In this document: positions 1 through 38,244 of the stretch, in pieces
Layout of the letters: every line of letters begins with the position of its first letter
Position numbering within the stretch: position 1 is the first letter of the stretch
NCBI GenBank assembly: GCA_016125275.1
Contig: WGMB01000001.1
Span: 248,001 to 312,000 of the forward strand
Direction of reading: 5' to 3'
From: Acidobacteriota bacterium
Lineage (GTDB): Bacteria > Acidobacteriota > Terriglobia > Bryobacterales > UBA6623
DNA length: 64,000 nt
Translations under genes and position numbers: made by a program
Notes under the pieces: generated by a model
What the model was told of the DNA's origin: nothing
The model's input: only the letters and a program-made list of their open reading frames with translations
The model's database searches: none

Positions 1-288
1 CAGTTCTACCCGCGCATTCCGCGGGAGGAGATTCTGGCCGGGCGGCCGGACGTGATTCTGGACATGGGCGACATGGCCGTGACCGACGCGGTGACGGAGG
101 AGCACAAGCGGGCAGTGGCGGCGCTGTGGAAGCGAGAGTTTCCGGACCTGCCGGCGACGCGGGCGGGGCGCGCCTATGCGGTGGCCGACGACCGCTTCGT
201 GGTGCCGGGGCCGCGCGTGGCCGAGGCGGCCGCGCTGCTGTTTCGCCTGATCCATCCCGAGGCGGCGGGGACAGAGGCCGGGCGTTGA
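1..288 (+). CDS. Cobalamin/iron-siderophore ABC transporter substrate-binding protein, 3' end only
   Basis: The reading frame is open from base 1 and stops at 286-288, giving the last 95 residues of a protein whose start lies outside the window. The fragment includes the stretch RPDVILDMGDM, typical of the C-terminal lobe of BtuF/FepB-type binding proteins, where a 'PDVIL' strand is followed by a helix. It ends with a hydrophobic helix (AAALLFRLIHPE), as in that family. The ATPase gene starts inside its stop codon (TTGA overlap) and the permease follows, so this is the periplasmic receptor of the same importer. The cobalamin synthesis genes downstream make a corrinoid the likely ligand; that is inference. 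It is truncated by the window edge, not a pseudogene. Confidence 0.72.
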   Translation, partial: QFYPRIPREEILAGRPDVILDMGDMAVTDAVTEEHKRAVAALWKREFPDLPATRAGRAYAVADDRFVVPGPRVAEAAALLFRLIHPEAAGTEAGR

Positions 289-1052
289 AGCCGCTGTATA
301 CGCTGCACGGGCTGAGCTACCGCTACGGCGGACGCCGCGCCGTGGACCATGTGGACTTGAGCTTCGAGGCCGGCCGGATGACCAGCGTGGTGGGTCCGAA
401 CGGGGCCGGCAAGTCCACGCTGATGGGCGTGATGGCCGGCGTGCTCGAAGGCTACGAGGGCGGCTGCCGCTTCGAGGGCCGCGAGATCGCCGCTTGGAAC
501 CGGCGGGAGTTGGCCGCGCGGGTGGCGTTCATTCCTCAGACCCTGCGGTTGGAGTTTCCCTTCACCGCCGAGCAGGTGGTCTTCATGGGGCGGACGCCGC
601 ATGGCAGGGGGCTGTTCGAGACGGAGGCAGACCGGGCGGCGGTGGAGCGGGCGCTGGCGCTGACGGACTCGCAACAGTTCATCGGCAGAGCGTTTGGGGA
701 GCTCAGCGGCGGCGAAAAGCAGCGCGTGGTGCTGGCTTCGGCGCTGGCGCAGGAGCCGGAAGCGCTGCTGCTGGACGAGCCGACGACCTTTCTGGACTTG
801 AAGCACCAACTCGACCTCTACGGCCTGCTGCGGAAGCTGGCGGGCGAGGGCGTGGCCGTGGTGGCGGTGACGCACGACCTGAACCTGGCGGCGGCGTACT
901 CGGACCGGCTGGTGGCGATGGCTTGCGGCCAGGTGGTGGCCGACGGGGCCCCGAGCGAGGTGCTGCGCGCGGACGTGGTGGAGAAGTACTTTGGCGCGCG
1001 GGTGCAGGTGATCGAGACCGCCGCCGGGCGGCCCTGGGCGGTCTACGGGTAG
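285..1052 (+). CDS. Cobalamin/Fe-siderophore ABC transporter ATP-binding protein (BtuD/FhuC type)
   Basis: A 255-residue ABC ATPase that powers import of the ligand captured by the upstream binding protein. Visible motifs are Walker A GPNGAGKST (about residues 37-45), signature LSGGE (140-144), Walker B LLLDEP (161-166) and a switch histidine in AVTHDL near 195. The length matches the BtuD/FhuC/FecE family. The frame stays open further upstream, but homology begins at KPLYTLHGLSYRYGG, so the TTG at 285 is chosen. It overlaps the TGA of the preceding gene (TTGA), and such coupling recurs in this operon. The permease starts one base after its stop. Corrinoid specificity comes only from context. 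Confidence 0.88.
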   Translation: MKPLYTLHGLSYRYGGRRAVDHVDLSFEAGRMTSVVGPNGAGKSTLMGVMAGVLEGYEGGCRFEGREIAAWNRRELAARVAFIPQTLRLEFPFTAEQVVFMGRTPHGRGLFETEADRAAVERALALTDSQQFIGRAFGELSGGEKQRVVLASALAQEPEALLLDEPTTFLDLKHQLDLYGLLRKLAGEGVAVVAVTHDLNLAAAYSDRLVAMACGQVVADGAPSEVLRADVVEKYFGARVQVIETAAGRPWAVYG

Positions 1053-7232: not shown

Positions 7233-7274
7233 GATCTTCCCAATGTAAGCGCTGTATACGGCAATGCCTGCGTG

Positions 7275-7280
7275 TATAAT
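7275..7280 (+). promoter_or_regulatory. Probable -10 box (TATAAT) of the sulfatase at 7288, leaderless arrangement
   Basis: A perfect TATAAT ends seven bases before the ATG at 7288, so transcription would begin at about the start codon. The -35 position (around 7252-7257, CTGTAT) is not a good match. It lies in the 55-base divergent region with the hydrolase gene. Confidence 0.5.
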
Positions 7281-7287
7281 CACGCCG

Positions 7288-16482: not shown

Positions 16483-16508
16483 CTCCCCCAGCTTAGCCGA
16501 GCGGGCGG

Positions 16509-17441
16509 TCAGCTCTTGGGGCTGAGGACCCAGACGGTGGGATCGCGCGGGCCGATCTCGCACGGGCTCTCGGTGACATAGAGGGTGCCGTCGATGTCGG
16601 CGGAGACGGAGCTGGGGGCCATCAACTGGGCCGAGCGGGCGCTGGGCAGGCGGCCGACGGTGAGGTCGGGCTTGGCGGCGTCGGTGGAGGCTGCGCCGGC
16701 GATGGTGCTGATGAAGCCTTCGGGGTTGACGCGCCGGATGACGTCGTTGCCGGAGTCGGCGATGAGGAGGCCGCCCCTGTCGTCGATGGCCAAGCCGAGG
16801 GGCTCGTTGAGCTCGGCGCGCCAGGCGGCCGCTCCGTCGCCGGAGTAGCCGGGGCTGCCGGAGCCGGCAAAGACGCTGCGTTTGCCTTGTCCGTCGACTT
16901 TGTAGACGACGTGGCTTTCCGCGTCAGAGATGTAGATGTTGCCGCGGGCGTCGCGGGCGACTCCGGCCGGCTTGCGGACCTTTTGGCCGTCGGCGGGTTC
17001 CTCGAGGGGGTCGACCAGCGGGCGGATGGCGAAGTTCTCCGCGCTACGCAGGAGGGAAGTCGGCGCGTCTTTGTCTTCGTCTCCTTCGATGTAGGCCTCG
17101 ACGAAGGGGACCGAGGAGATGAGGCGGTAGCGCAGCGGCGAGACCGCCGGCAAGGCCGCGACGAGGATGAGGATGGAGACCAGTCCCATCTGTACGCGCG
17201 AGTCGAGCAGGACCTCGGAGATCCAGCTCTGTTCCTTCTTTTTGCGGAACTTGCCGGAGTGCGGGGAGGGCTCGCCGCAGTGGATGCAGTACTTGCGGCT
17301 GCCGCGCAGCAGGGCGGCGCATTTGGAGCAGTAGCTTTGCAGGGCCTCGGAGTCGAAGTCGATGCTGGCCGTGGCCACCCCGCAGTCGTCACAGAAGCGG
17401 GACTTCTCGATGAGGAAGTGGTTGCAGGACTGGCATTCCAT
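16509..17441 (-). CDS. Membrane protein: double zinc ribbon, one TM segment, NHL-type beta-propeller repeats
   Basis: A 310-residue protein. The first 65 residues carry four CxxC pairs (CQSC, CDDC, CSKC, CIHC), consistent with two zinc ribbons in the cytoplasm. One hydrophobic segment follows at about residues 84-100. The rest contains NHL-type repeats: PAGVARDARGNIYISDAESHVV and PLGLAIDDRGGLLIADSGNDVIRRV, read piecewise, plus a third at the end. The topology suggests a cytosolic zinc module joined to an external sensing or binding propeller. It starts 27 bases upstream of the radical SAM gene region and is the first gene of that group. No known name. Confidence 0.75.
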   Translation of the reverse strand: MECQSCNHFLIEKSRFCDDCGVATASIDFDSEALQSYCSKCAALLRGSRKYCIHCGEPSPHSGKFRKKKEQSWISEVLLDSRVQMGLVSILILVAALPAVSPLRYRLISSVPFVEAYIEGDEDKDAPTSLLRSAENFAIRPLVDPLEEPADGQKVRKPAGVARDARGNIYISDAESHVVYKVDGQGKRSVFAGSGSPGYSGDGAAAWRAELNEPLGLAIDDRGGLLIADSGNDVIRRVNPEGFISTIAGAASTDAAKPDLTVGRLPSARSAQLMAPSSVSADIDGTLYVTESPCEIGPRDPTVWVLSPKS

Positions 17442-17568
17442 GGGGGCTTTTCCGGGTTCCGGGAAGCGTCAGTGTATCCCCCGATCGACCCAGCCGGGCC
17501 TCCGTGGGAAGCCCTACGGCGCCGGCAACGAACACCTAGGGGGCCCTCGCGTGGCAAGGGCGTTCTGC

Positions 17569-17574
17569 TAGCCT
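17569..17574 (+). promoter_or_regulatory. Probable -10 box (TAGCCT) of the sulfatase at 17583, leaderless arrangement
   Basis: TAGCCT ends eight bases before the ATG and no Shine-Dalgarno lies between. The 140-base divergent gap from the zinc-ribbon gene holds no other obvious site. Confidence 0.4.
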
Positions 17575-17582
17575 GTGGGCCG

Positions 17583-18935
17583 ATGAGATACCTGCTCGGG
17601 CTGTTTCTTGCGACGGCGGCGTTGGCTCAGCCGCGGCCGAACGTGATCTTCGTCCTGGTGGACGACATGGGCTATGCCGATACGACGCCGTACGGTAACC
17701 CGTACAACAAGACGCCGAACGTGGAGCGGATGGCGAGGGAGGGCATGCGGTTCACGCAGGCTTACGCGGCCGCGCCGAACTGTTCGCCGACGCGGGCGAG
17801 CATCCTGACGGGCCACTGGCCGGCGCGGACGGGCGTGACGCAGTACCTACCGGGCAACGACTTCCCTTGGGCCAAGCTGTTGCAGGCGGAGCTGCCCGAA
17901 GGGCTGCCGCTGGACGAGACCATCTTGGCGCAGCCGCTCGGCCGGGCCGGCTACGCCACGGCCAGCGTGGGCAAGTGGCATCTGGGCGGCGGCGAGTACC
18001 TGCCGGAGAACCGGGGCTTCGACCTAAACTTCGCGGGAGGCCCCTGGGGCAGCCACAACTCGATGTTCGCGCCCTACAAAGGCGAGCCGATTCTGGCCGG
18101 GCCGCCCGGGGAGTATCTGACCGACCGGCTGGCGGCCTTCTCGGAGTCGTTCATCCAGGCCAACCGGGACCAGCCGTTCTTCCTCTACCTGCCGCTGTAC
18201 TCGGTGCACGGGCCGGTGGAGGCCAAGCAGTCGCGCATCGACGGGTTCGCCGGCAAGCCCGATCCGACCGGCGGCCACGACCCGACCTATGCGGCGATGG
18301 TGGAAGGCGTCGATTGGATCGTGGGGCGGTTGATGGACAAGCTGGAGGAGCTGAACCTGACCGAGCGTACGGCGATCTTCTTTTTCTCTGACAACGGCGG
18401 CACCAAGCGCGCTGACAATCGGCCGCTGCGCAGCGTGAAGGGCTGGCTGTACGAGGGCGGCGTGCGCGAGCCGCTGATCGTTCGGTGGCCGGGGACGATT
18501 CCGGCGGGGCGGGTCGACGAGACGCCGGTGACGTCGATCGACTTCTACCCGACGATCCTTTCGATGACGGGCGTGGCGGACGCGGCGGGCCACGTCTCCG
18601 ACGGCGTGGATCTCATGCCCCTTTTGCGGGGCGAGGGGAGGCCGGCGCCGCGGACGCTGTATTGGCACTATCCGCACTATTCCAACGCAGGCAGCCCGCC
18701 GTCGGGGGCCCTGCGCGAGGGCGACCTGAAGCTGATCGAGTGGTTTGAGGACGACCGGGTGGAGCTGTTCGACCTGGCGGCGGACGTCTCCGAGCAGAAG
18801 GATTTGGCGCAGGAGCGTCCGGCGGAGGCGCGGCGGCTGCTGGAGAAGCTGCGGGCGTGGCGCAAGAGCGTGGGCGCCAAACCAGCTTTGCCGAACCCGA
18901 ACTACGATCCGGCGAAGGTCAAGCGGCGCAAGTAG
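17583..18935 (+). CDS. Exported S1 sulfatase, arylsulfatase A-like
   Basis: A 450-residue sulfatase. The ATG at 17583 gives a Sec signal peptide (MRYLLGLFLATAALAQ); the frame is open far upstream but antisense to another gene. Metal ligands lie in FVLVDDMGYAD, the formylglycine cysteine is C67 in CSPTR, KWHLGG lies near residue 125, and FFFSDNGG carries the later Asp/Asn ligands. This motif set (SDNGG) fits arylsulfatase A-type members and differs from the iduronate-sulfatase-like enzyme at 7288. It is convergent with a TonB-like gene seven bases away. Confidence 0.92.
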   Translation: MRYLLGLFLATAALAQPRPNVIFVLVDDMGYADTTPYGNPYNKTPNVERMAREGMRFTQAYAAAPNCSPTRASILTGHWPARTGVTQYLPGNDFPWAKLLQAELPEGLPLDETILAQPLGRAGYATASVGKWHLGGGEYLPENRGFDLNFAGGPWGSHNSMFAPYKGEPILAGPPGEYLTDRLAAFSESFIQANRDQPFFLYLPLYSVHGPVEAKQSRIDGFAGKPDPTGGHDPTYAAMVEGVDWIVGRLMDKLEELNLTERTAIFFFSDNGGTKRADNRPLRSVKGWLYEGGVREPLIVRWPGTIPAGRVDETPVTSIDFYPTILSMTGVADAAGHVSDGVDLMPLLRGEGRPAPRTLYWHYPHYSNAGSPPSGALREGDLKLIEWFEDDRVELFDLAADVSEQKDLAQERPAEARRLLEKLRAWRKSVGAKPALPNPNYDPAKVKRRK

Positions 18936-19785: not shown

Positions 19786-21165
19786 TCACCCCTTCAGGGC
19801 CCAATTGCCCAGCCGGACGGCCAGCTCGTCCTCGGTGCGTTCGCCGAAGGCTTTGAGTCGGGCCGCCAAGTCGTTGACGACATCCGGTTTGGAGGCGTAG
19901 AGGTTGTTGTTCTCCTCCGGGTCGGCGTCGATGTCATAGAGCTCGCCGGGCCGATAGGCGGGGCGATTGTCAAACAGTCGCAGCACGAGCTTCCAGCGTT
20001 CCCAGCGGATGGCCCGCTCCTCATAGAAGGAGCCGTCGATGGCGGCCTGGGGCAGGTTCTGCATCACGCAGGGGGCTTCCCAGCGGTCCTTCCCGGAATT
20101 GACCACGTCGAACAGGTTGCGGCCGTGCAGGAACGGACGGCGGGCCTCGACCTCGACGGTACCGACCAAGGGGTTGATGCCGGCGGCGTCTAGGATGGTC
20201 GGCATGAGGTCGACGGAGCTGACGCCGGACTTCCAGACCTTGCCCTGGGGCAGGCGCTTGGGGTAGCGCAGGATCAGCGGGATGCGGGCGACCTCGTCGT
20301 AGGGAATGCACATGCCTTCGGCCGTGCCGGGGCGGTCCCGCCAGGTGCGGCCGTGCTCGGTGGTCACGATGATGAAGGTGTTGTCGAGCTGGCCGGTACG
20401 CTCGAGGGTTTCGAGAAAGCGGCCGACGTTCCAGTCCAGCGCGGAGACGTTGCCCCAGTAGCCGGGGTATTCCTGGCCGCGGTAGAGGTCGGCGAAGCGC
20501 TGGGGCGGGTCGAGCGGCTCGTGGGGCGTGTAGTAGCTCTGGTAGAGCAGCCAGGGCTCGTCGGAGCCGGCGCGTTCCTCGATGAACTTGAGGCCCTGGT
20601 CCGTGTGCACGTCGGGCCGGTAGCGGGACTTGTGCGGCTCGGCGAGCCAGTGCCGCAGCATCGAGTTGAAACCCTTCCAGTAGTCGAAGAAGCCCGGGTT
20701 CATGGGCCCCAGGTGCCATTTGCCGATGTGGCCGGTGGAGTAGCCGCCGCTGTTGAGAAAGAAGGCCCAGTTGTCGATCAGCTTGAAGCGAGGGTCGCGC
20801 CAGGGATCCGGGATAGGTTCCTGGTAGTTGGAAGGCAACGTGCTGGGCTTGATGGGGTAGACGTTGCGACGCAGGCCGTGCCAGTGCGGGTAGCTGCCGG
20901 TGAGGATGGAGGCCCGCGTGGGGCCGCAGAGCGCCTGGGGAACGTAGCAGTTGTCGAAGCGGACGCCCTCGGAGGCGATTCGGTCGATGTTGGGCGTATG
21001 GGTTTCGCGCAGGCCGTAGCAGTTGAAGGCGTCGCGGCGGCACTTGTCGAACAGCAGGAAGAGGATGTTCGGCGGCCGGTCGGCTGCGGAGGAAGAGGTT
21101 TGCGGCGAAGCGCCGGCGGCGAGGGGGAGAGCTCCGGCGGAGGACAGGAAGCTGCGACGATCCAT
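19786..21165 (-). CDS. Exported S1 sulfatase with Tat-like signal
   Basis: A 459-residue sulfatase. The N-terminus MDRRSFLSSAGALPLAAG is a twin-arginine-type signal. Metal-binding LFDKCRRDAFN follows, and the formylglycine cysteine is C80 in CGPTR. Other visible motifs are GKWHLGP near residue 145 and VTTEHGRTW near 290, where the family's SDHG is replaced by TEHG. It differs enough from the other three sulfatases to have another substrate. Its 3' end lies just after a small inverted repeat. A TATGCT box lies eight bases before the ATG. Confidence 0.9.
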   Translation of the reverse strand: MDRRSFLSSAGALPLAAGASPQTSSSAADRPPNILFLLFDKCRRDAFNCYGLRETHTPNIDRIASEGVRFDNCYVPQALCGPTRASILTGSYPHWHGLRRNVYPIKPSTLPSNYQEPIPDPWRDPRFKLIDNWAFFLNSGGYSTGHIGKWHLGPMNPGFFDYWKGFNSMLRHWLAEPHKSRYRPDVHTDQGLKFIEERAGSDEPWLLYQSYYTPHEPLDPPQRFADLYRGQEYPGYWGNVSALDWNVGRFLETLERTGQLDNTFIIVTTEHGRTWRDRPGTAEGMCIPYDEVARIPLILRYPKRLPQGKVWKSGVSSVDLMPTILDAAGINPLVGTVEVEARRPFLHGRNLFDVVNSGKDRWEAPCVMQNLPQAAIDGSFYEERAIRWERWKLVLRLFDNRPAYRPGELYDIDADPEENNNLYASKPDVVNDLAARLKAFGERTEDELAVRLGNWALKG

Positions 21166-21173
21166 CGCGCCCT

Positions 21174-26776: not shown

Positions 26777-28162
26777 ATGACCGCCCGAATCGAGCCCTCG
26801 CCGGCCTTGTTCAGCGCGCTGCGCGCCTTGCTGGGCGAGCGCTTTTCGGTGTCGCCCTATGACATCGAGTCCCATGCCAGGGATGAGTCTTGGCATGAGC
26901 CCGAGCCGCCGGACGGAGTGGCGTTCGTGGAGTCCACCGAGGAGGCGGCGGCGGTGGTACGGCTGTGCGCCGAGCACCATACGCCGATCGTGCCGTTCGG
27001 CGCGGGGACTTCGGTGGAGGGGCACGTGCAGGCCGTGCGCGGGGGCGTCTCGCTGGACTTGTCGCGGATGAAGGCGATCCTGTCGATCGAGCCCGACGAC
27101 CTGGATTGCCGCGTGCAGGCGGGCGTGACGCGGATGCAGCTCAATCGCGAGCTCGAAAAGCAGGGGCTGATGTTCCCTGTCGACCCCGGGGCTGATGCGA
27201 CGCTGGGCGGCATGGCCGCCACGGGAGCTTCCGGCACCACGACGGTGCGCTACGGGGCGATGCGGGAGAACGTGCTGGGGCTGACGGTGGTGACGGCCGA
27301 CGGGCGGATCGTGAAGACCGGAGGAAGGGCGCGGAAGTCGTCTTCCGGCTACGATCTGACGCGGCTGTTCGTGGGGTCCGAGGGCACCCTGGGCGTGATC
27401 ACGGAGCTGCAGTTGCGACTGCAGCCGCTGCCCGAGGCCGTCTCTTCGGCGGTATGCGCCTTCGAGAGCCTGGACGGCGCGGTGGACTGCGTGGTGGAGG
27501 CTTTGCAGTCGGCGATTCCGGTGGCGCGCTGCGAACTGCTGGACGAGGCCTCGATCGACGCCGTCAACGGCTACTCCAAGCTCGACCTGCCGCGCGCGCC
27601 GACGCTGTTTCTGGAGTTTCACGGCACGCAGAGCTCGGTGGCCGAGCAGGCGGAGCTGAGCCGGGCGATCGCGGCCCAGCATGGCGGCGGGGAGTTCCGC
27701 TGGTCGGCGCGGCGGGAGGACCGCGACAAGCTGTGGGAGGCGCGGCACAAGGCCTACTACGCGCTGAAGGCGCTGCGGCCGGGCGCGCGCGGTTGGCCGA
27801 CCGATGTGGTCGTGCCGATCTCCAAACTGGCCGAGTGCATTCGCGAGACGGTGGCCGACTGCGGCTCGCTGGGGCTGCTGGCGCCGGTGCTGGGACACGT
27901 GGGCGACGGCAACTTCCATGTGGCGTTCTTGTTCGATGAGGGGGACGCCGAGGAGTTGGGGCGGGTGCGGGAGGCGAATCGTCGCCTGATCGCCCGGGCC
28001 TTGGCGATGGGCGGAGCCTGCACGGGCGAGCACGGCGTGGGTTTGGGGAAGATCGAGGCGCTGGAAGCCGAGCACGGCGAGGGCGTGGAGCTGATGCGCA
28101 AGATCAAACAGGCCCTCGATCCCGAGGGCCTGCTCAATCCCGGCAAAGTCTTTCGCGATTAG
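26777..28162 (+). CDS. FAD-linked D-2-hydroxyacid oxidase, D-lactate dehydrogenase (cytochrome)/GlcD type
   Basis: A 461-residue flavoprotein oxidising D-lactate or glycolate-like 2-hydroxyacids and passing electrons to the respiratory chain. The PCMH-type FAD-binding half shows FGAGTSVEGH, DPGADATLGGMAATGASGT and SSSGYDLTRLFVGSEGTLG. The FAD-oxidase C-terminal half shows GHVGDGNFHVAF and GEHGVGLGK, which hold the metal- and flavin-proximal histidines. Length fits the single-subunit D-lactate dehydrogenase group (LDHD/GlcD). The ATG at 26777 is preferred because the upstream frame overlaps the divergent gene. No GlcE/GlcF subunits are adjacent. Confidence 0.88.
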   Translation: MTARIEPSPALFSALRALLGERFSVSPYDIESHARDESWHEPEPPDGVAFVESTEEAAAVVRLCAEHHTPIVPFGAGTSVEGHVQAVRGGVSLDLSRMKAILSIEPDDLDCRVQAGVTRMQLNRELEKQGLMFPVDPGADATLGGMAATGASGTTTVRYGAMRENVLGLTVVTADGRIVKTGGRARKSSSGYDLTRLFVGSEGTLGVITELQLRLQPLPEAVSSAVCAFESLDGAVDCVVEALQSAIPVARCELLDEASIDAVNGYSKLDLPRAPTLFLEFHGTQSSVAEQAELSRAIAAQHGGGEFRWSARREDRDKLWEARHKAYYALKALRPGARGWPTDVVVPISKLAECIRETVADCGSLGLLAPVLGHVGDGNFHVAFLFDEGDAEELGRVREANRRLIARALAMGGACTGEHGVGLGKIEALEAEHGEGVELMRKIKQALDPEGLLNPGKVFRD

Positions 28163-29907: not shown

Positions 29908-31350
29908 TCATTGGCGGCAGGCCGGCCAAGCCTGCCGCCAGCCGGAGTGATCGTGGGCGCTACGCATGCGCCAACCGTGTAGCATCTGCTCGAGCTCGCC
30001 CTTTTTGTCCTGGTGTTCCGGGCTGCGCCAGAGGTTGCGGACCTCGGTCGGATCGTTGACTAGGTCAAAGAGCTGGCCGTCGGGGCTGTCGACGAAGCAA
30101 ACGTACTTCCAGTCCCGCGTGCGCAGCATCGTCTCATAGTCGCTGGTGGTGAAGTTGGTGTCGTGGGCCTGCTCACAGACCACGAACTCGCGCTCTTTCC
30201 ACTCCTTGCCCTCGATGGCGGGCAGCAGCGTGCGCGCTTCCATCTTGTCGGGCACGGGGATGCCTGCCATCTCGAGGATGGTCGGGGCGACGTCCATGAG
30301 CGAGCAGAGACCGTCGATCTTGCGGCCGCCGCGATAGCGTTCCGGCGCCCAGACGATCAAGGGCATCTTGGTGATCGTGTCGTAGAAGGTCCACTTCTGG
30401 CTGTGGCCGTGGTCGGTGAGGGCGTCGCCGTGGTCCGAACTGAAGATGACGATGGTGTTCTCCAGATAGCCGGTTTCGTCGAGCGTCTGCAGGATATTGC
30501 CGATCTGCCGGTCGATCATCGTCACGTTTGCCAGATAGTAGGCTCGCTGGCGATGGCGCTGCTCGGGCGTGGGCCGCCACTGGTGGACGACGGAATCGTG
30601 ATCGACCTCGCAGTTGTGGTCGATCATGCCGCGGTAGGGTTCGGGCTGATTCGCCAGCTCCTCCTCGGTGACCTCCATCAGCGGCAAGTCCTTGGACAAG
30701 TACGGCTCGGCTTCGGACGGCGTGGGATCGTACGGCGGATGCGGGCCTGGGAAGCCGACCTGGAGGAACATCGGCTCCTTGCGGGGGGTGTGGCGGAGCC
30801 GCCAGCAGACGCGATCGCCGACGAAGTTGTCGGAGTGTAGCTCCGGCGGCAGCATCCATTCGAAGGCGCCCAGCCGCTGGTGGTAGTCCGGCATGTCTCG
30901 GTAGCTGAGGCGGCCGGGCTTGTGGAAGCCCCGGGCCTGGATGGCCTTGTCCCACTCGTCGATGAACCAGCGGCCTTCCATGAAGCGGTCCTTGTTCTCG
31001 ACCGGGAAGCGCTCGTCGAACCCCAGCAGCCCGTTGTAAGGGACTTGGTGCATTTTGCCGACGTTGATGGTGTGGTAGCCCGCGTCCGAGAGCAGCTCGA
31101 CGATGGAGTGCTCCCAGCGGTCGCCATTGCGCAAAACGCCCGTGTTCTGGGGGTATTGCCCCGAGAACAGGCTGGCGCGGCACGGGGCGCACGAGGCGGC
31201 CGGGATGTGGCAGTTGGTGAAGGTGACGCCTTCATTGACCAGCCGATCGAGATGCGGCGTGTCCATGTAGTCGAAGCCCAGGGCTCGAATCGTGTCGAAG
31301 CGCTGCTGGTCAGTGAGGATGAAGACGATATTCGGACGCTGCTCGGACAT
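29908..31350 (-). CDS. S1 sulfatase without signal peptide
   Basis: A 480-residue sulfatase. The N-terminus MSEQRPNIVFILTDQQRFD goes straight into the catalytic fold, so no export signal is visible and the enzyme may act in the cytoplasm, unlike the other three. The formylglycine cysteine is C54 in CAPCR. Later motifs are VGKMHQVPY near residue 110 and FSSDHGDALTDHG near 305. The C-terminal LFDLVNDPTEVRNLW is typical of the family. A TAAACT box lies nine bases before the ATG. No sulfatase maturase or glycosidase is adjacent, so the substrate is unknown. Confidence 0.9.
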   Translation of the reverse strand: MSEQRPNIVFILTDQQRFDTIRALGFDYMDTPHLDRLVNEGVTFTNCHIPAASCAPCRASLFSGQYPQNTGVLRNGDRWEHSIVELLSDAGYHTINVGKMHQVPYNGLLGFDERFPVENKDRFMEGRWFIDEWDKAIQARGFHKPGRLSYRDMPDYHQRLGAFEWMLPPELHSDNFVGDRVCWRLRHTPRKEPMFLQVGFPGPHPPYDPTPSEAEPYLSKDLPLMEVTEEELANQPEPYRGMIDHNCEVDHDSVVHQWRPTPEQRHRQRAYYLANVTMIDRQIGNILQTLDETGYLENTIVIFSSDHGDALTDHGHSQKWTFYDTITKMPLIVWAPERYRGGRKIDGLCSLMDVAPTILEMAGIPVPDKMEARTLLPAIEGKEWKEREFVVCEQAHDTNFTTSDYETMLRTRDWKYVCFVDSPDGQLFDLVNDPTEVRNLWRSPEHQDKKGELEQMLHGWRMRSAHDHSGWRQAWPACRQ

Positions 31351-31409: not shown

Positions 31410-31850
31410 CTACTCCACGCGCACGAAGCGCTCGCGCTCCAGACGAGCGGGCGACTCGATCCCGGGGTAACGGCCGAAGGTGAAGTAGCTGCTGGAGGCG
31501 ACCGCCCGGATGTAGCGGCGGGGCGATTCGGCGCCGCAGGCGATCTGCTCACAAGCAGCCCAGGCGGACGGGGCGGAGGGGCAGGCGCAGACCGGTTCGA
31601 GCGATACCTCGCCGTCGGGGTCGAGATCCTTGAGGGCCAGTGAGCGAGCCGCCGCGAGATCCTCGGGAGCGCGGGCGCCCTGGACGGCGGCCACGGTGGC
31701 GGCGGCTTCGAGATCGGCGGCGCTGATGTAGAGGCGGCTGAAGTCCCAGGCTCCCAGGCACAGCAGAATCGCGATGGGCAGCACGAAGGCGGTCTCGATC
31801 AGAGACGACCCTCGGGTGGGCTCGTGACGGCGTGACGTGCGGGCTTTCAT
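31410..31850 (-). CDS. TadE-like pseudopilin family protein (second copy)
   Basis: A 146-residue protein with the TadE/TadF layout: basic N-terminus, then GSSLIETAFVLPIAILLCLGAWDFSRL, which holds the conserved glutamate at the start of the single membrane helix. The C-terminal half has two cysteine pairs (CACPSAP, CEQIAC) and ends in YFTFGRYPGIES. Both features match the paralogue at 34664-35113 in order. The ATG overlaps the end of the upstream TadG-like gene by four bases. Minor pseudopilins of this class assist Tad (tight adherence) pilus assembly. No TadA/TadB/TadC or secretin gene lies in the window. Confidence 0.78.
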   Translation of the reverse strand: MKARTSRRHEPTRGSSLIETAFVLPIAILLCLGAWDFSRLYISAADLEAAATVAAVQGARAPEDLAAARSLALKDLDPDGEVSLEPVCACPSAPSAWAACEQIACGAESPRRYIRAVASSSYFTFGRYPGIESPARLERERFVRVE

Positions 31851-32977
31851 CGGATCAGCACCGGTCCTCCCGGTCCGCGCCGTTGCCCGGCGGGCGGAGG
31901 TTCCACGACTCGGGCGTCGTCGTCGACGACGAGACGGATGCGCTCGGCGGTGACGGCGTTCCAGCCGGGCTCCGAGGATGTATTGGGCCGCCAGGAGAGC
32001 GTACGGGAGGGGAAGTGGAGCGCGCCTTCGAGGAACGAGCCGTCGGCGGGCGTCAAGGTTGCTTCGCCTTCGGAGGAGAACGAATCGAAGAGGCGCTCCC
32101 CACGGAGCCGCGCCACGGAGGCGTCCGAGAGCTGGACCGGGCCGTCCACGATGAGGAACGAGACGCCTTCGCCTCGGACCTCGCCGCCCAGAACCTCGAC
32201 GCCGTCGAGCAGCACGTATTCTCCGGGGTTGAAGACGTTGACGCCTTCTTCGATGCGCAGGACGTCTTGGTAGCAGCCGGGCCAGAAGTCGGTGACGCCC
32301 TCGGGCCGGTCGGTGGCGGCGCCTTCGGGCCGGCCGGCGCAGTCGGGGGGCGGTTCTGATGTGGCCGGCGCCGGCGCGGAGCGGGGCTCGCCCGGGGCGG
32401 GGGAGAGGCAGGCGTCGGCAGGGGCGCGGGCGTCGACGCGGTCGGCGGAGAGGCAACCGCCGTCGGGCAGGGCGACGGCGTCCGGGTCGGTCGAGCGAGC
32501 TTCCACCGCGCAGGCCACGCGCACGACGCCGGGACCTTCGACCACCAGGGCTTCCGGGCCGCTCTCGGCGAGGGCCAGCAGGCAGGCGGATTCGCCCTCT
32601 CGCCAGGCGGCCGCCGCGTGGGCGTTGACGCTCATCTCGGGCGCACCGAACAGAGACAGGAACGTCATGCGGACGTTGCGGTGCAGTGAGACTGCGACGG
32701 CGTTCTCGGGGTCCAGGCGCTCCACGCGCAACTCGTCCGAGCCGTCGCGGAAGCCGTTCAGGCGGGCGTCGTCCAAGGCGGCCGCGGCCAGCTCCTGGTC
32801 TGTGCGTGCCGAAGAGAGCTCGAAGGCGGCGCCGATGGCGGCGGCGTCAGCCAGGGTCTGCGCACGGCGCTTCTCCTCGAAGACGTGAGCGCCGTCCAGG
32901 GCCAAGCCCAGTAGGCCGCTCGCTACACCGAACAGCAGCACGAACAGAAGCAGCGATTGGCCGGAGTCCGAACGCAT
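31847..32977 (-). CDS. TadG-like membrane-anchored envelope protein (second copy)
   Basis: A 376-residue protein. The N-terminal helix (GQSLLLFVLLFGVASGLLGLALDGAHVF) followed by RRAQTLADAAAIGAA is the Tad-family TadG start. A proline/alanine-rich, low-complexity middle (about residues 190-225) leads to a C-terminal domain with VTDFWPGCYQDVLRI and NVFNPGEYVLLDGVEVLGGEV. The same domain occurs at 35154-36509 (VTHYWPGYYDSEIKI, IFEPGIYVLEQG), so the two proteins are paralogues. The C-terminal part may be a beta-helix. It is the first gene of a two-gene block and is coupled to the TadE-like gene by a 4-base overlap. Confidence 0.75.
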   Translation of the reverse strand: MRSDSGQSLLLFVLLFGVASGLLGLALDGAHVFEEKRRAQTLADAAAIGAAFELSSARTDQELAAAALDDARLNGFRDGSDELRVERLDPENAVAVSLHRNVRMTFLSLFGAPEMSVNAHAAAAWREGESACLLALAESGPEALVVEGPGVVRVACAVEARSTDPDAVALPDGGCLSADRVDARAPADACLSPAPGEPRSAPAPATSEPPPDCAGRPEGAATDRPEGVTDFWPGCYQDVLRIEEGVNVFNPGEYVLLDGVEVLGGEVRGEGVSFLIVDGPVQLSDASVARLRGERLFDSFSSEGEATLTPADGSFLEGALHFPSRTLSWRPNTSSEPGWNAVTAERIRLVVDDDARVVEPPPAGQRRGPGGPVLIR

Positions 32978-33043
32978 CAGCCCTTGTCCAACAGTTTGGC
33001 CCCCCGGCCTCTGCCGGACAATCGAGCGGACGCCTTAGAAGCT

Positions 33044-34135
33044 TTACGGGGCCGTGCGCTCGACGTCGATGCGGATCTTCCAGTGCCAGCTCTCGCCGGG
33101 CTGCAGACGGGTCATGCCCTGGTCGAGCACGAACGACTGCTGCAGGCCGACCCAGGGCTCGGGGCTGAAGTAGCCGCTGGGGGCGTCGCCCCACACGTTG
33201 AATTGGATGAAGGGCTGCTCGGGCCAGCGGTCGGCGTGGTGGGTGAGCCGGATGGTGAGGCCTTGCGGGTCGCTGAGCTCCATCCACGGGTCGGATTCGT
33301 AGCCGGTGAGCGAGATGGCGGCCAACTTCTCGAAGTCGGCCAGGGGGACGCCGTCGGCATGCGAGCGGGGCGTTCCCGCGCCGGTCGGCAGTCCGTTCTC
33401 CTTGACGAGCTCACGCTCGGAAGGCGTGGAGAAGCGGACCTGGCTGAGGTCGGAGCCGGGGATCAGGGGCGTGTTGAAGGTGATGTGGTTGCCGATGGAG
33501 AAGGGCATCGGACGGGCGTTGTCGGGCTTGGCGGCGACAGTGTAGGCGATCTCGAGGTCGCCGTCGTGGAGGGTATAGGCGACATCGAGCCGGAAGCCGA
33601 AGGGGTAGAGCGCGCGGGTCTGCTCGGTGTCTTCGAGCGACAGGGCGGCGTAGGCGCCGTCGCGCACGCCGAGCTGCTCGACCTTCCACGGCATGTCGCG
33701 GACGAAGCCGTGACCGGGCATCTCGTAGCGCTTGCCGTCGAGGTCGTAGCGGCCCCGCTCGATGGAGCCGTCCGGCTTGGTTTCCGGCTTGAAGCCGGGC
33801 GGGAAGTTGCGGCCGGTGGCGGGCCACAGAAGCGGCGCCTTGCCGGTCCAGCCCTCCTGGGTCGAGTAGTCTTCGGCGCGGTAGAGGGTTTCGATCCAGT
33901 GGTCGCCGATCTTCAGCCGCAGGCTGCTGAGCTCGCCGCCCTTCGACGGCGCCACGGTGGCGATGGTTTGTGCCGCGGAGTCTTCCAGCACGAGCAAGTC
34001 CACCGAGCCGTCGGGCGTCTTGCCGTGGCTGGCGGAGTAGCGCGTGGGCGGCGCGGCGTCCTCCGGGCGGCTGGAGGAGCCGCAGGCGACGGCGAGCAGA
34101 GCGAGAGCGGTGGCGAAAGAAGTGGCGGCGCGCAT
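33044..34135 (-). CDS. Aldose 1-epimerase-family lipoprotein
   Basis: A 363-residue galactose-mutarotase-fold protein. The start at 34135 gives a lipoprotein signal (MRAATSFATALALLAVACGSS, cysteine near residue 18). Family features are LLWPATGRNFPPGF near residue 105, MPGHGFVRDMPW with a conserved histidine near 140, and NHITFNTPL near 225. It would interconvert anomers of sugars, or bind sugars, outside the cytoplasm. It sits between the two Tad-like blocks in the same direction, without obvious connection to them. A TAGCCT box lies eight bases before the ATG. Confidence 0.85.
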   Translation of the reverse strand: MRAATSFATALALLAVACGSSSRPEDAAPPTRYSASHGKTPDGSVDLLVLEDSAAQTIATVAPSKGGELSSLRLKIGDHWIETLYRAEDYSTQEGWTGKAPLLWPATGRNFPPGFKPETKPDGSIERGRYDLDGKRYEMPGHGFVRDMPWKVEQLGVRDGAYAALSLEDTEQTRALYPFGFRLDVAYTLHDGDLEIAYTVAAKPDNARPMPFSIGNHITFNTPLIPGSDLSQVRFSTPSERELVKENGLPTGAGTPRSHADGVPLADFEKLAAISLTGYESDPWMELSDPQGLTIRLTHHADRWPEQPFIQFNVWGDAPSGYFSPEPWVGLQQSFVLDQGMTRLQPGESWHWKIRIDVERTAP

Positions 34136-34143
34136 CGCGCTAG

Positions 34144-34149
34144 AGGCTA
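34144..34149 (-). promoter_or_regulatory. Probable -10 box (TAGCCT) of the epimerase gene, leaderless arrangement
   Basis: On the minus strand TAGCCT is followed by eight bases and then the ATG at 34135. No Shine-Dalgarno lies between. It is the same hexamer and spacing as at 17569-17574. Confidence 0.42.
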
Positions 34150-34178
34150 GCACAGCGCGCCGCGGGGAGCGCGAGTCG

Positions 34179-34667
34179 TCAGTTGACGATGGGGGCCGAC
34201 GACGAGCGGGCGATGGACATATTCTTGCCGATTCCCATGAGCGGCCCCATGAAGAGAGAGAACGGATACTGGGCTGACACGGTCACCACGCTGCCGGGGA
34301 CTCGGCCGGCCGACCAGGCAACCTGTACGGTCAGTTGGCCGGAGCTGATCCCGATGGCGTTACGGCGAACGACGTACTCGATCGCGGCGCGAGTCGGGTC
34401 GTCGCCCGCCGACATGTTGGGCGGCGGCGCGGCGGGGTTTTCGTCGCTGTGCATCGAGGCGAACCGCACTCCTTCGGCGACGGCGTGGGAGAGGCTCGCC
34501 CAGGTCCAGATGGCGCAGCCGAGCTGAAACGTGGCGGCCACGAAAGCGAGGAACAGGCCGAAGACGAGCGAAAGCTCGACGAAGGCCGAGCCGCGGTTAC
34601 ACGGGCCGCGGCTCGGGCGTCTGTCGTGCGGCCGGACTGGATCGACTCTCTGGACGCCTGCAGTCAT
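34179..34667 (-). CDS. TadE-like pseudopilin family protein
   Basis: A 162-residue protein with a basic N-terminus and the TadE signature GSAFVELSLVFGLFLAFVAATFQLG, including the glutamate at the start of the membrane helix. It then continues as an exported domain with AVAEGVRFASMHSDE and TVSAQYPFSLF, typical of TadE-like proteins. The start overlaps the stop of the gene at 34664 by four bases. Unlike the adjacent genes it has no counterpart in the second block, so it belongs to the first block only. Confidence 0.8.
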   Translation of the reverse strand: MTAGVQRVDPVRPHDRRPSRGPCNRGSAFVELSLVFGLFLAFVAATFQLGCAIWTWASLSHAVAEGVRFASMHSDENPAAPPPNMSAGDDPTRAAIEYVVRRNAIGISSGQLTVQVAWSAGRVPGSVVTVSAQYPFSLFMGPLMGIGKNMSIARSSSAPIVN

Positions 34668-35113
34668 TGCACTCTCAGGTAGCTATTGATGTCGATGTCC
34701 ACGTCGCTGGGGATTCCGATGTAGCGGCCCAAGGTTTGGAAGTCCTTGGAAGCGGTGGACTTGACGTAGACGCGCGGAAAGCCATAGCCGGGGCAGGTGG
34801 TGGTGGTGCAGGCGACCTCCAGGCCGGGGTTATCGGGGCAGTCGCAGAAGGTTTCGGCGTGCGCGGTGACGCCGTCGAGGCCTCCGATGTCGGAGAGGAT
34901 CGACTGCTCCATGGCCGCTGCGTCAATGGCGTCCTTGGTGGTGCGATAGCCTTGCACGGCGCCGGCGCTGGAAGCCGAGGCCAGGATGGCGGATTCGACG
35001 AACAGCCGGCCGAAGTCCGCAGCGTCCAAAGCCATCAGCATCATCACCGGAGTCGCGAGGGCGAACTCGACGATGGCGTTGCCTTTCTGGTTTTCGAGAA
35101 GTCGGATGCGCAT
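34664..35113 (-). CDS. TadE-like pseudopilin family protein
   Basis: A 149-residue protein with GNAIVEFALATPVMMLMALDAADFGRL, the TadE membrane helix with its glutamate. It then has cysteine pairs CDCPDNPG and CTTTTC, and a final FQTLGRYIGIPSDVDI. It is a paralogue of the gene at 31410-31850. The ATG at 35113 begins right before RIRLLENQKGN; upstream the open frame is unrelated. It lies 40 bases after the TadG-like gene and overlaps the next by four bases, so the three are cotranscribed. Confidence 0.8.
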   Translation of the reverse strand: MRIRLLENQKGNAIVEFALATPVMMLMALDAADFGRLFVESAILASASSAGAVQGYRTTKDAIDAAAMEQSILSDIGGLDGVTAHAETFCDCPDNPGLEVACTTTTCPGYGFPRVYVKSTASKDFQTLGRYIGIPSDVDIDINSYLRVQ

Positions 35114-35153
35114 GGCGATATTCCTTTTGGGCGGGGCTACTCCCACAACACCT

Positions 35154-36509
35154 CTACTCCCACAGCACCGTGCGATACGCCGGCGGCGCTTGCTCGGAGG
35201 TCGGCTTGTTGACGACCTGCACGTCCGCGGTTCCGGAGATGTTGAGGGTGTTGACGACGACGACCGTCCACTGGATGGAGGTCTCCGGGTTGCCGGCGAA
35301 GTCGAGGTGCTGGGAGGGCATGTAGATGGCTCCCTCGAAGAAGGAGTCCTCATTGCCCCGCGCGATGTTGTTGCCCGGGCTGCGATCGGGGGCGTTGCGG
35401 TTCACGAAGAACAGCACGCCCTTGTAGGGGCCGGAGGTCGGCGCGCTGAGTTGCACGGTGGCGTTGCCGCCGACGTCGATGAACTGCTTGCCGTCCGCGT
35501 TGATGCTGTAGAAGAAGACCTCGTTGCCGGTCACGGTTCCGCCGGTGATCTTCATGCCCTGCTCCAGCACATAGATCCCCGGCTCGAAGATGGCCGCGCC
35601 GTTCTGGATCTTGATTTCGCTGTCGTAGTAGCCGGGCCAGTAGTGCGTGACCTGCTCGGAGCCGCCGTTGCCGCCCCCGCCGTTCCCGTTCCCGTTCCCA
35701 TTGCCATTCCCGTTGCCGCCCTGGGCTTGGAAAGCGTAGGAGCCCGCGAAGGCGCTGGTCGTCGCCGCCGCGCTCGTGTAGCCGCCGGCCATGGCGGAGT
35801 AGTCGGGCACGGGCAGGGTTGCCAGAGGGTCCACCATCGGCGGGACGGAGATTTGCGGCGTGGGGTTGATACAGGTTCCGCTGAAGTTGCCGGATACGCC
35901 GACCCAGGTGACGTTGATGCAGCCGGAGCCGACCTGTCGCAGGGCCGTGCTCGAGTTGGAGTTGATCATCACGCCGCAGTTGGCGGTCAGGCGCGGCGTG
36001 CCGTTGTGCTTGTAGGCGTCCGCGTCGTCGGGATCCAAGACGATGATGCAGGGGTCTCCGGTGGGCTTGAGGCCCGCCACGGACCGAGCCCGCACGGTGG
36101 AAGCGCGCGGACCGAACATCCGCATGAACGTGGTGGGCACGCTCTTCTCCACGACGACTTCGACGAAGTTGTTGTCGCCGGCGTGCTCGCCGGTGTCCGG
36201 CGGGAAGTAGACGGTGATCTCGGAGTTGGTCTCGTCGAAGCCGTGGAGGGATGCGTCGTAGTCGGCGGCGGGTTTGATGTTGGCGTCGTAGTCGTTGTTG
36301 CCCCGGCGCAGCTCCTGGACGGCGCCGATCGCCCCGGCGTCGGCCGCCGCCTGGGCGCGGCGACGTTCGAAGAGCAACCGCGAGCCGTCGAAGACCAGCC
36401 CCAGGATGCCTGCCAGGACGGCGAACAAGATGACGAAGAGCAGCAGCGCTTGGCCTCGGCGGGCCGAAGCGCAACGAGGCTCGCAGCGCCTCGAGTTTCG
36501 GGGGTCCAT
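35154..36509 (-). CDS. TadG-like membrane-anchored envelope protein with Gly-Asn repeat
   Basis: A 451-residue protein. The N-terminus (GQALLLFVILFAVLAGILGLVFDGSRLLFERRRAQAAADAGAIGAV, read piecewise) is the TadG-type anchor and leader. The middle carries cysteines and a run of Gly-Asn dipeptides. The C-terminal domain begins VTHYWPGYYDSEIKI and includes IFEPGIYVLEQGMKITGGTV and FFEGAIYMPSQHLDF. The latter has the alternating pattern of a beta-helix and resembles the paralogue at 31847-32977. The start at 36509 is the first ATG before the basic N-terminus. A shared sequence box lies upstream (36605-36630). Confidence 0.75.
   Translation of the reverse strand: MDPRNSRRCEPRCASARRGQALLLFVILFAVLAGILGLVFDGSRLLFERRRAQAAADAGAIGAVQELRRGNNDYDANIKPAADYDASLHGFDETNSEITVYFPPDTGEHAGDNNFVEVVVEKSVPTTFMRMFGPRASTVRARSVAGLKPTGDPCIIVLDPDDADAYKHNGTPRLTANCGVMINSNSSTALRQVGSGCINVTWVGVSGNFSGTCINPTPQISVPPMVDPLATLPVPDYSAMAGGYTSAAATTSAFAGSYAFQAQGGNGNGNGNGNGNGGGGNGGSEQVTHYWPGYYDSEIKIQNGAAIFEPGIYVLEQGMKITGGTVTGNEVFFYSINADGKQFIDVGGNATVQLSAPTSGPYKGVLFFVNRNAPDRSPGNNIARGNEDSFFEGAIYMPSQHLDFAGNPETSIQWTVVVVNTLNISGTADVQVVNKPTSEQAPPAYRTVLWE
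35682..35717. repeat. Six tandem 6-bp units encoding a Gly-Asn repeat
   Basis: On the plus strand six consecutive hexamers of the form RTTSCC (GTTCCC three times, ATTGCC, ATTCCC, GTTGCC) lie inside the TadG-like gene, encoding (Gly-Asn)6 on the minus strand. Units are multiples of three, so length changes would lengthen or shorten the linker without shifting frame. Confidence 0.85.
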
Positions 36510-36604
36510 ACTTGCTCCCACGGTTGTTGAACCGAGTATGGGCCTCCGGAGCCGGTTCACGACACGGTGGCTATGGATGGGTTCCCGTAGAAAGAGGCCT
36601 GATA

Positions 36605-36630
36605 GGAGTTCTAGTACTCTATCTAGGGTT
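36605..36630. promoter_or_regulatory. Box shared between the two Tad-gene upstream regions (copy 1)
   Basis: The segment GGAGTTCTAG with CTAGGGTT at its other end lies in the 139-base gap before the TadG-like gene at 36509. A similar arrangement (GGAGTTCCTAG with CCTAGGGTT, total span 29 instead of 26) is at 38389-38417, upstream of the vWA gene. A regulator site is possible, and so is a shared 3'-end feature of the preceding genes. Confidence 0.3.
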
Positions 36631-36648
36631 TTCACTAGGCGGCGGGCG

Positions 36649-38244
36649 TCAACGTGTAAGGCGGATGACGTTGCTGCGGACGCGGTCGAAGGCCGCTGCC
36701 AGCTCATCGACCGTGGGCGCGAAGATGTACTCGCCTTCGGGACGGGCGACCGGATCGAAGACCGGGGAGGCGTCGTCGTTGGACAGGCGCAGCAGGAACT
36801 CCTCATTGGCGGTGAGCCCGGCCACGCCGAGCCCCAGGGCATAGATCGTGATGGAGCCCAGGGATTCGTCGGCGCCGGCCTGCTCGGCGACGGCGTCGGC
36901 CACGTTGCGGGCCGACTGCTGCCACTTCTGGCCGCGGTAGTTCGAGTAGGAGCCGGAAGTGGAGAACAGCTTCGAGTCGCAGGGGTCATATCCGCCGTAG
37001 GGGCCAGGCACGATGTCGAAGGTCTTGGAGTAGCTGGTCCCGTCGCAGTTGGCGCAGCCGTGGCTGGAGTCGTACTCAGCCTGCCACTCGCTCGGCAGGC
37101 AGTAGTTGTTGTTCAGCAGCGTCTCGACATTCTCGCCATAGGGGGTGTCGAGGTTGCTGCAACCGGAGACCGGATAGAAGTCGGCGCCCCAGTTGTAGGC
37201 GTGGTTGACCGGCGCCGGACCCGCGATGAACTTGTTGAAGCCGGCCATGTTGGTGGGGCCGCCGTAGGTCTGTATGACGGCTTCCTTGTAGTTGGAACTG
37301 CAGGTGGGGTTGCTGGACCTGCCGTCTCGCGGGCTTCCGGTGCGGTGGACGCGCCAGCGGGCCGGCAGGGCCGTCGGCTCGCCGTCCGTGAAGAACACGA
37401 TGACGTTGAACGAGTCCGCGTCGTTGATGCGTAGCAGCTCACCGTAGGCCAGCCATAGACCCAAGGCGGAGTTGGTGGCGCCGTTGGACTCCATTTTGGT
37501 GATTTCGTTGGCCGCGTAGTTGCCGTCCTTGAATCCGCTGCGTAGGGTGACGTCGACGTTGGCTCCGGTGCCGAAGGAGACCAGGCCTACGCGGTCGCCG
37601 TTGTTGTCAAAAAAGTCCAGGAAGGTGGTGGCGGCCTGCTGCACGTCGTCCCAGGCGCCGGCGGCGCCGAGCGAGCCGGAGCGGTCGAGCACGAGCATGA
37701 CGTTGGAGTCCTGGCGCGAGGCGATCGCCGAGGAACGCACCGTGAGCTGGCTGACGCCGAAGATCCGCGCGAAGAAGGTGGGAATGACGGCCTCGCCGGT
37801 GACTCGCAACTGGCGAATGCCGGGGTTGAGGTTGGGATCTTGGGCAAAGGGCGCGGGCGCGTCGGACGGGATCGTGAGCCCGAAGATCGTCGGCGGCTGC
37901 GAGAAGCCGACCTGCTTGGTCATCAGGTAGCCGCTGGGAAAGTTGGTGTTGAGCATCAAGTTGGCGATGCGCGTGATCGAGGAGCCCTGTTCTTCGAAGG
38001 TCGTCCCCGTTGCCAACCCACGCATGGCGGAAAGCGCGACAGAATCAATCGCTACCCCCAAGTAGTGTTTGACCGAGTAGGCGTAGACCAGATCCACGGC
38101 CAGAGCCGCCAGCGAGAACAGGAAGGTCGCCAGCAAGGCGATCAAGATCATCACCTGGCCTTGACGGCGCCCCCGAACCGGTCGGGTCGACCGCACCTCG
38201 GCCGTCTGCCCCGAAGACGAAGGGTTCCAGTTCCGTTGTTCCAT
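36649..38244 (-). CDS. TadG-like protein with von Willebrand factor A domain
   Basis: A 531-residue protein. The N-terminus has a basic stretch (RPVRGRRQGQ) followed by a membrane helix with the TadG pattern ILIALLATFLFSLAALAVDLVYAY. A vWA domain follows: MIDAS motif DRSGS near residue 190, a threonine in ATNSALG and an aspartate in FFTDGEPT. A cysteine-containing insertion follows, and the domain ends with AYDRVRSN-like helix near the C-terminus. vWA proteins bind partners through a metal ion, so an adhesin or assembly role is likely. The ATG at 38244 has GGGAGAG upstream and directly follows a hairpin. Confidence 0.85.
   Translation of the reverse strand: MEQRNWNPSSSGQTAEVRSTRPVRGRRQGQVMILIALLATFLFSLAALAVDLVYAYSVKHYLGVAIDSVALSAMRGLATGTTFEEQGSSITRIANLMLNTNFPSGYLMTKQVGFSQPPTIFGLTIPSDAPAPFAQDPNLNPGIRQLRVTGEAVIPTFFARIFGVSQLTVRSSAIASRQDSNVMLVLDRSGSLGAAGAWDDVQQAATTFLDFFDNNGDRVGLVSFGTGANVDVTLRSGFKDGNYAANEITKMESNGATNSALGLWLAYGELLRINDADSFNVIVFFTDGEPTALPARWRVHRTGSPRDGRSSNPTCSSNYKEAVIQTYGGPTNMAGFNKFIAGPAPVNHAYNWGADFYPVSGCSNLDTPYGENVETLLNNNYCLPSEWQAEYDSSHGCANCDGTSYSKTFDIVPGPYGGYDPCDSKLFSTSGSYSNYRGQKWQQSARNVADAVAEQAGADESLGSITIYALGLGVAGLTANEEFLLRLSNDDASPVFDPVARPEGEYIFAPTVDELAAAFDRVRSNVIRLTR

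Follow-up and report, generated by a model that had tools for sequence, protein, structure and literature searches.

A Tad minor-pilin cluster encoded away from the Tad machinery in an acidobacterial genome: probable pilus-tip sets and a predicted beta-solenoid pilin

We analyzed a 64,000-nucleotide stretch of an Acidobacteriota genome (G000:C3:248001-312000; 7.55 Mb in 20 contigs), called the window below, and within it a cluster of genes for Tad-domain and TadE-like proteins, A to G, at positions 31410-38244. The best explanation, which we consider probable, is that B, C and D constitute a minor-pilin tip set of a Tad (type IVc) pilus, encoded apart from the machine, assembled in trans and displaying the solenoid of B, with F and G as a diverging, incomplete tip set and A as a Tad protein of the von Willebrand factor A (vWA) type. 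The domains, the homology, the gene order, the co-occurrence with TadA and the presence of machinery in the genome are established, and the solenoid of B is predicted.

All Pfam identities reported here for A to H (Table 1) lie above the cut-offs, which for TadE is 22.9 bits. A, B and F combine the N-terminal Tad domain (PF13400) with a large C-terminal region, as TadG-type proteins do, and C, D and G carry the TadE/TadF minor-pilin domain. Hydrophobic N-terminal segments were found in A, B, C, D, F and G. Judged from sequence reading and hydropathy, C, D and G also have prepilin-like G/xxxxE sites (Glu at +5) next to the hydrophobic segment, the putative site of C reading G/NAIVE.

The sequence-only reading of this stretch had described two mirrored pairs, B with C and F with G, and the genes, the coordinates and both motif pairs that it named are present in the sequence. 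In BLASTP, B and F aligned over 424 columns with 29% identity and 107 bits (best of 60 shuffles, 21.9 bits), and C and G over 146 columns with 35% identity and 86.3 bits (best of 60 shuffles, 18.1 bits), with four Cys aligned between the latter two. The members of each pair are true homologues, far above chance. C and D showed no BLASTP similarity (8.5 bits); the C-type profile picked up D weakly (1.7e-5), as expected for two TadE proteins. The order Tad-TadE (C type)-TadE (D type) recurred in 10 of 14 additional modules that contain a Tad gene resembling B, collected from this genome and six related ones. Among the remaining four, L074 and L082 end at a contig edge, L080 has the Tad gene alone and L086 has the order TadE-TadE-Tad. 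Because of this recurrence D, which had been regarded as a stray TadE gene between the pairs, has to be reassigned as the third member of the first set. B-C-D is a complete triplet; E and then the incomplete set F-G come after it, and no D-type gene follows G.

The two sets are unequal. The branch of F in a tree of 15 Tad proteins measured 2.42 changes per column versus 0.36 for B; there F grouped with B and the orthologue of B from genome G002 at a support of 86/84 and was flagged for an odd residue make-up. The tree containing G had poor resolution; in it the branch of G measured 2.09 versus 0.66 for C, and G clustered at 88/90 with C and the proteins of L032, L074 and L075. The best match of F in 80 other genomes was 31% identical; B has a match of 56% identity in G002. 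When each protein was left out in turn, F retained 14 of the 22 columns on which the remaining 14 proteins all agree, a smaller share than any other of the 15 rows. As a second copy, F-G is strongly diverged and incomplete. The partial duplication proposed from the sequence thus holds for the homology of the pairs but not for their equality, and the phylogeny suggested as a check placed F with moderate support only and left the position of G poorly resolved. A recent tandem duplication of B-C into F-G was considered and is not established, given the moderate support, long branch and odd residues of F and the poor resolution of the G tree.

It is possible, though on balance we doubt it, that F-G is a decaying remnant of the duplication with little or no function, which would be compatible with the tip-set explanation for B-C-D. 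Both long branches, the low share of conserved columns in F, the missing D-type gene and the lack of any close relative of F agree with decay, as do the unusual composition of F (first-position G+C 0.77 versus 0.58-0.69 in the other genes listed) and its structure model, in which the predicted local distance difference test (pLDDT) is mostly < 50 beyond the pilin part. Both frames are nevertheless open with a third-position G+C of 0.85 and 0.84, the overlap of F and G by 4 bases is preserved, the four Cys of C and G align, and the Tad and TadE domains score above the cut-offs.

No match to TadA, TadB/C, CpaB, TadZ, TadV or RcpA was found in the window with hidden Markov models (HMMs) made from the genome's own loci, and the whole-genome searches placed neither a T2SSE nor a secretin match inside it, in agreement with the sequence-only reading. 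The single plain-BLAST match to CpaB in the window (47 residues, 42.6%, E 7e-5, frame 27144-27398) was not supported by the CpaB HMM. Elsewhere in the genome the machinery is present: PF00437 matched at nine places, and four of them are TadA-type loci (L035, L036, L037 and L029; the machinery identities of L036 were confirmed by Pfam). The locus at C7:338-345 kb encodes, by Pfam, an A24 peptidase, RcpC/CpaB, a secretin, a TadZ-like ATPase, TadA and two T2SSF proteins (TadB and TadC). The locus at C1:244-251 kb has CpaB, TadZ, TadA, TadB, TadC and a Flp-like gene below the cut-off, that at C3:129-133 kb a CpaB-secretin fusion, TadA, TadB and TadC, and that at C10:623-634 kb has its own TadE/Tad genes; the names at these three, the fusion excepted, were given by similarity to the C7 locus or by sequence reading. 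The TadA nearest to the cluster, at C3:130 kb on the same contig, is about 150 kb away, and the possibility of a full tad locus directly flanking the window was rejected. The next downstream T2SSE match, at C3:399004, we take to be PilT-like by its motif. The cluster therefore lies outside any tad locus, in contrast to TadE/TadF minor pilins encoded within one, in a genome that has Tad machinery.

Several further observations concern machinery and pilin loci. One open frame of 491 aa (L035:5733-7205) holds both CpaB/RcpC and a secretin domain. A second CpaF-like ATPase is encoded in a plus-strand gene cluster (L029:76-8870) that stands back to back with the C10 Tad locus. Two near-identical tandem genes for Flp-like pilins, below the Pfam cut-off, are located at L117:7129-7827 (G000:C14:1088 kb), with no match to the Tad machinery set within the 15 kb read there. 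In the tad locus of genome G063, a PilZ domain is followed by a TadE domain in one stop-to-stop frame (L086:6649-7629).

Minor-pilin genes away from machinery are a common situation in these bacteria. The genome has 11 TadE and nine Tad matches, eight of the nine Tad matches over the cut-off, and in the stretches read the minor-pilin genes occupied six places without machinery and one, at C10, with it. We surveyed 81 genomes of the same order, this one included, for places matching B (E <= 1e-3, pieces merged by hand), with "near" meaning within 12 kb of TadA. Far from TadA were 71 of the 89 places, a number inflated by contig breaks, and 18 of the 89 were near. The control, counted by hand in genomes with <=10 contigs and any Tad place by an A or B match (G022, G028, G038, G048, G059 and G074), gave six of nine places far or on another contig and three of nine near. 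The cluster is no oddity within its own lineage. The label "orphan" given to it earlier is correct in that no machinery is nearby, but it denotes nothing special, because many Tad places in the order lie far from TadA.

The distribution of these genes follows that of TadA. An A match (E <= 1e-15) or a B match (E <= 1e-3) was found in 61 of the 65 genomes with a clear TadA, among them G020 with a partial gene, versus one of the 16 without (Fisher p 7e-12). A second look at six of the 16 TadA-negative genomes revealed weaker ATPases only (best E 1e-61, 39% identity). In genome G063 (L086) the same gene families, in the order TadE-TadE-Tad, stand directly after TadV-TadZ-TadA-TadB-TadC. The sequence-only reading had left two options, machinery elsewhere or a separate structure, and it is the first that is favored, because of the co-occurrence with TadA and the adjacency in G063.

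The structure of B was predicted with AlphaFold from five sequences (pLDDT 73.2; predicted template modeling score 0.60). The model consists of an N-terminal helix (residues 12-68), a small head up to residue ~149 and a beta-rich, solenoid-like part from ~153, with the last strand at 445-450. VIA-align was run on 457 Foldseek candidates. The first 18 rows were ice-binding/antifreeze folds (Z 12.2-13.9, 177-194 residues, root-mean-square deviation [rmsd] 3.2-4.1), and ComZ (PDB 6qvi) matched along most of B with Z 11.6 over 303 residues (rmsd 9.8, 12% identity), the row following it having Z 7.4. For a repeat fold the drop in Z after the ComZ row is a better argument than the value of Z itself. 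Some rows reached from the head to the C-terminal residues although only a few positions aligned (91 positions across 44..451 for B, 88 across 31..376 for F); going by these ranges, the last strand may join the head, in which case the solenoid would be an insertion as in ComZ. B is accordingly predicted to be a pilin with a beta-solenoid head. The model of F gave no match with Z >= 8, ice-binding rows reaching Z 4.3.

An ice-binding function for B was considered in view of the clear fold match of the model and not adopted. PF11999 (DUF3494) had no match in the genome at E <= 10 and none among the 15 Tad proteins, and the authors who described the resemblance of ComZ to ice-binding folds drew no function from it (PMC6561018). 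A PDB sequence search with the Tad profile was uninformative: its matches were designed chains of the Armadillo type, aligned over the helix, and an elicitin.

Several points weigh against a tip set served by a distant machine. All the machines are encoded far from the cluster, and none of the 14 B-matching places in the family to which the window belongs lies within 12 kb of a TadA; the Tad gene at C10:632 kb, the only one of this genome beside a TadA, was left out of the 14 because it is too distant to match B. Genome G058, the sole TadA-negative genome with an A or B match, has both A and B Tad matches and no TadA-like ATPase above E 8e-13, at a completeness of 99%. The Fisher p overstates the independence of the genomes because 14 of the 16 TadA-negative ones belong to the window's family, and B matches at the threshold used may cover the N-terminus only. 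As to the fold, the model of B rests on few sequences, with residues 242-285 under pLDDT 50; for repeat folds a Z below ~13 may mean a common arrangement only, as the tool cautions; Foldseek gave the B model no hit at E <= 0.001; and the model of F is poor (pLDDT 49.2), its pilin part being predicted and the rest mostly under 50.

Part of this evidence would also suit a structure of the surface or envelope that is independent of any Tad machine, such as an anchored adhesin complex. The distance of the cluster from every TadA and the Tad matches of G058 fit such a structure, and beta-solenoid and vWA domains are adhesin-like. We regard it as unlikely, however, since the genes co-occur with TadA, C, D and G carry putative prepilin-type sites, and the same families stand inside the tad locus of G063.

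According to the tip-set explanation, a Tad machine encoded elsewhere would supply the peptidase that matures B, C and D, and these three, a large TadG-like pilin with two pilins of the TadE type, would start the pilus and form its tip. The pilin helix of B would then be in the filament, and the beta-solenoid head would be exposed at the far end, where it would do the binding. F-G may be a second tip set of the same subfamily, fast-diverging, incomplete and perhaps degenerate, and A is probably another adhesive minor pilin, bearing a vWA domain. The tip proposal is made by analogy with the Kil pilus of Myxococcus xanthus, whose interchangeable tips are encoded separately (PMC12075869). We infer the tip location, the assembly in trans, the exchangeability, the machine used among the four and the ligand.

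The genes and their neighbors are collected in Table 1. The gaps amount to 139 bases between A and B, 40 between B and C, 25 between D and E, 66 between E and F and 59 between G and H, and C/D and F/G overlap by 4 bases each. A promoter scan found no site. Upstream of the cluster are genes for a sucrose synthase and a sucrose-phosphate synthase. A has a MIDAS-like (metal ion-dependent adhesion site) motif, DRSGS, at residue 187. A paralogue of A with 76% identity stands alone at G000:C15:9357-10880 (L034), the DNA similarity stopping approximately at the gene ends.

Table 1. Genes of the Tad-type cluster and its downstream neighbor (positions in the window).
Gene	Product	Position	Strand	Pfam support
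A	Tad-domain protein with vWA domain, 531 aa	36649..38244	-	Tad 24.2 bits, VWA_2 54.4 bits
B	TadG-like large minor pilin (putative), 451 aa	35154..36509	-	Tad 38.6 bits, Tad_C 22.4 bits
C	TadE-like minor pilin (putative; C type), 149 aa, 4 Cys	34664..35113	-	TadE 31.3 bits
D	TadE-like minor pilin (putative; D type), 162 aa	34179..34667	-	TadE 35.3 bits
E	Aldose 1-epimerase-like protein, 369 aa	33044..34153	-	Aldose_epim 71.9 bits
F	Diverged TadG-like paralogue of B, 376 aa	31847..32977	-	Tad 32.3 bits
G	Diverged TadE-like paralogue of C, 146 aa	31410..31850	-	TadE 33.3 bits
H	Sulfatase-family protein	29908..31350	-	Sulfatase 174.6 bits

The gene between the two sets, E, does encode an epimerase-like protein, with a lipoprotein-like N-terminus as judged by eye, but it is not a conserved partner of the pilin genes, and H is probably a neighbor only. 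The single strand and the gaps of <=66 bases from B to H would suit an operon with a carbohydrate-related role at the surface, E and H acting with the tip proteins on a polysaccharide, but we think such an operon very unlikely: no E match at 1e-5 was present in the 22 loci compared, the one H match among those of >=30% identity shown was partial (38% over 98 residues in L074), the contig of G002 breaks off directly behind C with the downstream genes out of view, and three further sulfatase-like open reading frames lie elsewhere in the window. The four such frames in the window are at 7249-8685, 16497-18932, 19789-21171 and 29908-31350 (H), three of them being 25-26% similar to H.

Another Tad set of this genome stands beside a type III secretion system (T3SS) locus. 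At C3:63-83 kb (L101:9129-18688 and L032:2496-9246) the T3SS locus is followed by a Tad-TadE-TadE triplet, in L032, that is paralogous to B-C-D and begins ~0.4 kb after an FHA/YscD-type gene. SctL, SctN, SctQ (with FHA), SctR, SctU and SctV pass the NCBIfam cut-offs, SctN and SctR passing the flagellar model as well. SctJ, a FliR/SctT-type protein and a rod/needle-like protein matched below the cut-offs only, and a small SctS-like open reading frame was seen by eye. The five secretin matches of the genome all lie outside this locus. Away from the machinery, minor-pilin genes of this genome occupy at least six places, predicted solenoid and vWA heads being among their products, and several Tad machines are present. 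A bolder reading would take them as a wardrobe of exchangeable tips that the lineage keeps for these machines, one tip set being tied to the secretin-less T3SS locus as a Kil-like apparatus for contact-dependent killing or uptake, outside the known phyla; this seems to us rather improbable. Orthologues of SctV (59-60%) occurred in two of 80 relatives, G024 and G029, with no Tad/TadE match in the 31-33 kb around them by the profiles that find the window and L032 genes, and G002 has the B orthologue and no SctV. Kil-type predation was not adopted as the leading explanation on these grounds.

With regard to wider meaning, so many Tad minor-pilin modules in the order lie far from TadA that bacteria may quite generally customize Tad pili by diversifying the tip in trans. 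The predicted ComZ-like solenoid on a TadG-type pilin moreover provides a testable idea of the tip ligand, which might be DNA, a polysaccharide or surfaces. Among the papers listed by searches of the open-access literature, none gave an account of Tad tips in Acidobacteria or of a TadG solenoid.

Among known systems, the tadE-tadF-tadG genes of single-locus Tad systems share the TadE and Tad Pfam families and a probable minor-pilin role with the genes described here, which differ in standing outside a tad locus. In 2019 Denise et al. described Tad systems as almost exclusively single-locus and multi-locus ones as very rare (PMC6668835). The DUF3494 ice-binding proteins (PF11999) resemble B in its predicted solenoid fold, with Z up to 13.9; B, however, has no PF11999 sequence match and is not a member by sequence. 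ComZ of Thermus thermophilus, the proposed DNA-receptor tip pilin, is like B a pilin with a large beta-solenoid, in B from the model, and it was argued to fit only at the pilus tip (PMC6561018). ComZ, however, is a competence-pilus protein with a domain like that of pseudopilins, whereas the N-terminal domain of B is of the Tad type and its gene is accompanied by TadE genes, the neighbors being TadE and Tad genes and not those of a ComZ-type locus.

A close parallel is the Kil Tad pilus of M. xanthus, which has four minor-pilin complexes encoded in separate gene clusters (PMC12075869). Like the Kil tip complexes (KilL/M/N), the sets described here are several TadE/F/G-type sets per genome, apart from the machinery and with varied heads on the large pilin, and the position of the L032 set after a T3SS locus recalls the Kil/T3SS* pair with its needleless T3SS. 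Kil is set apart by belonging to another phylum, and B is predicted to carry a solenoid of the ComZ/ice-binding type; for the head of KilN4 no PDB homologue is reported (PMC12075869). The split Kil genes were called "a unique situation" in the 2021 Kil paper (PMC8460266). As far as we found, what is new is the occurrence of scattered probable tip modules in Acidobacteria, comparable scattered tip genes being known from predatory myxobacteria.

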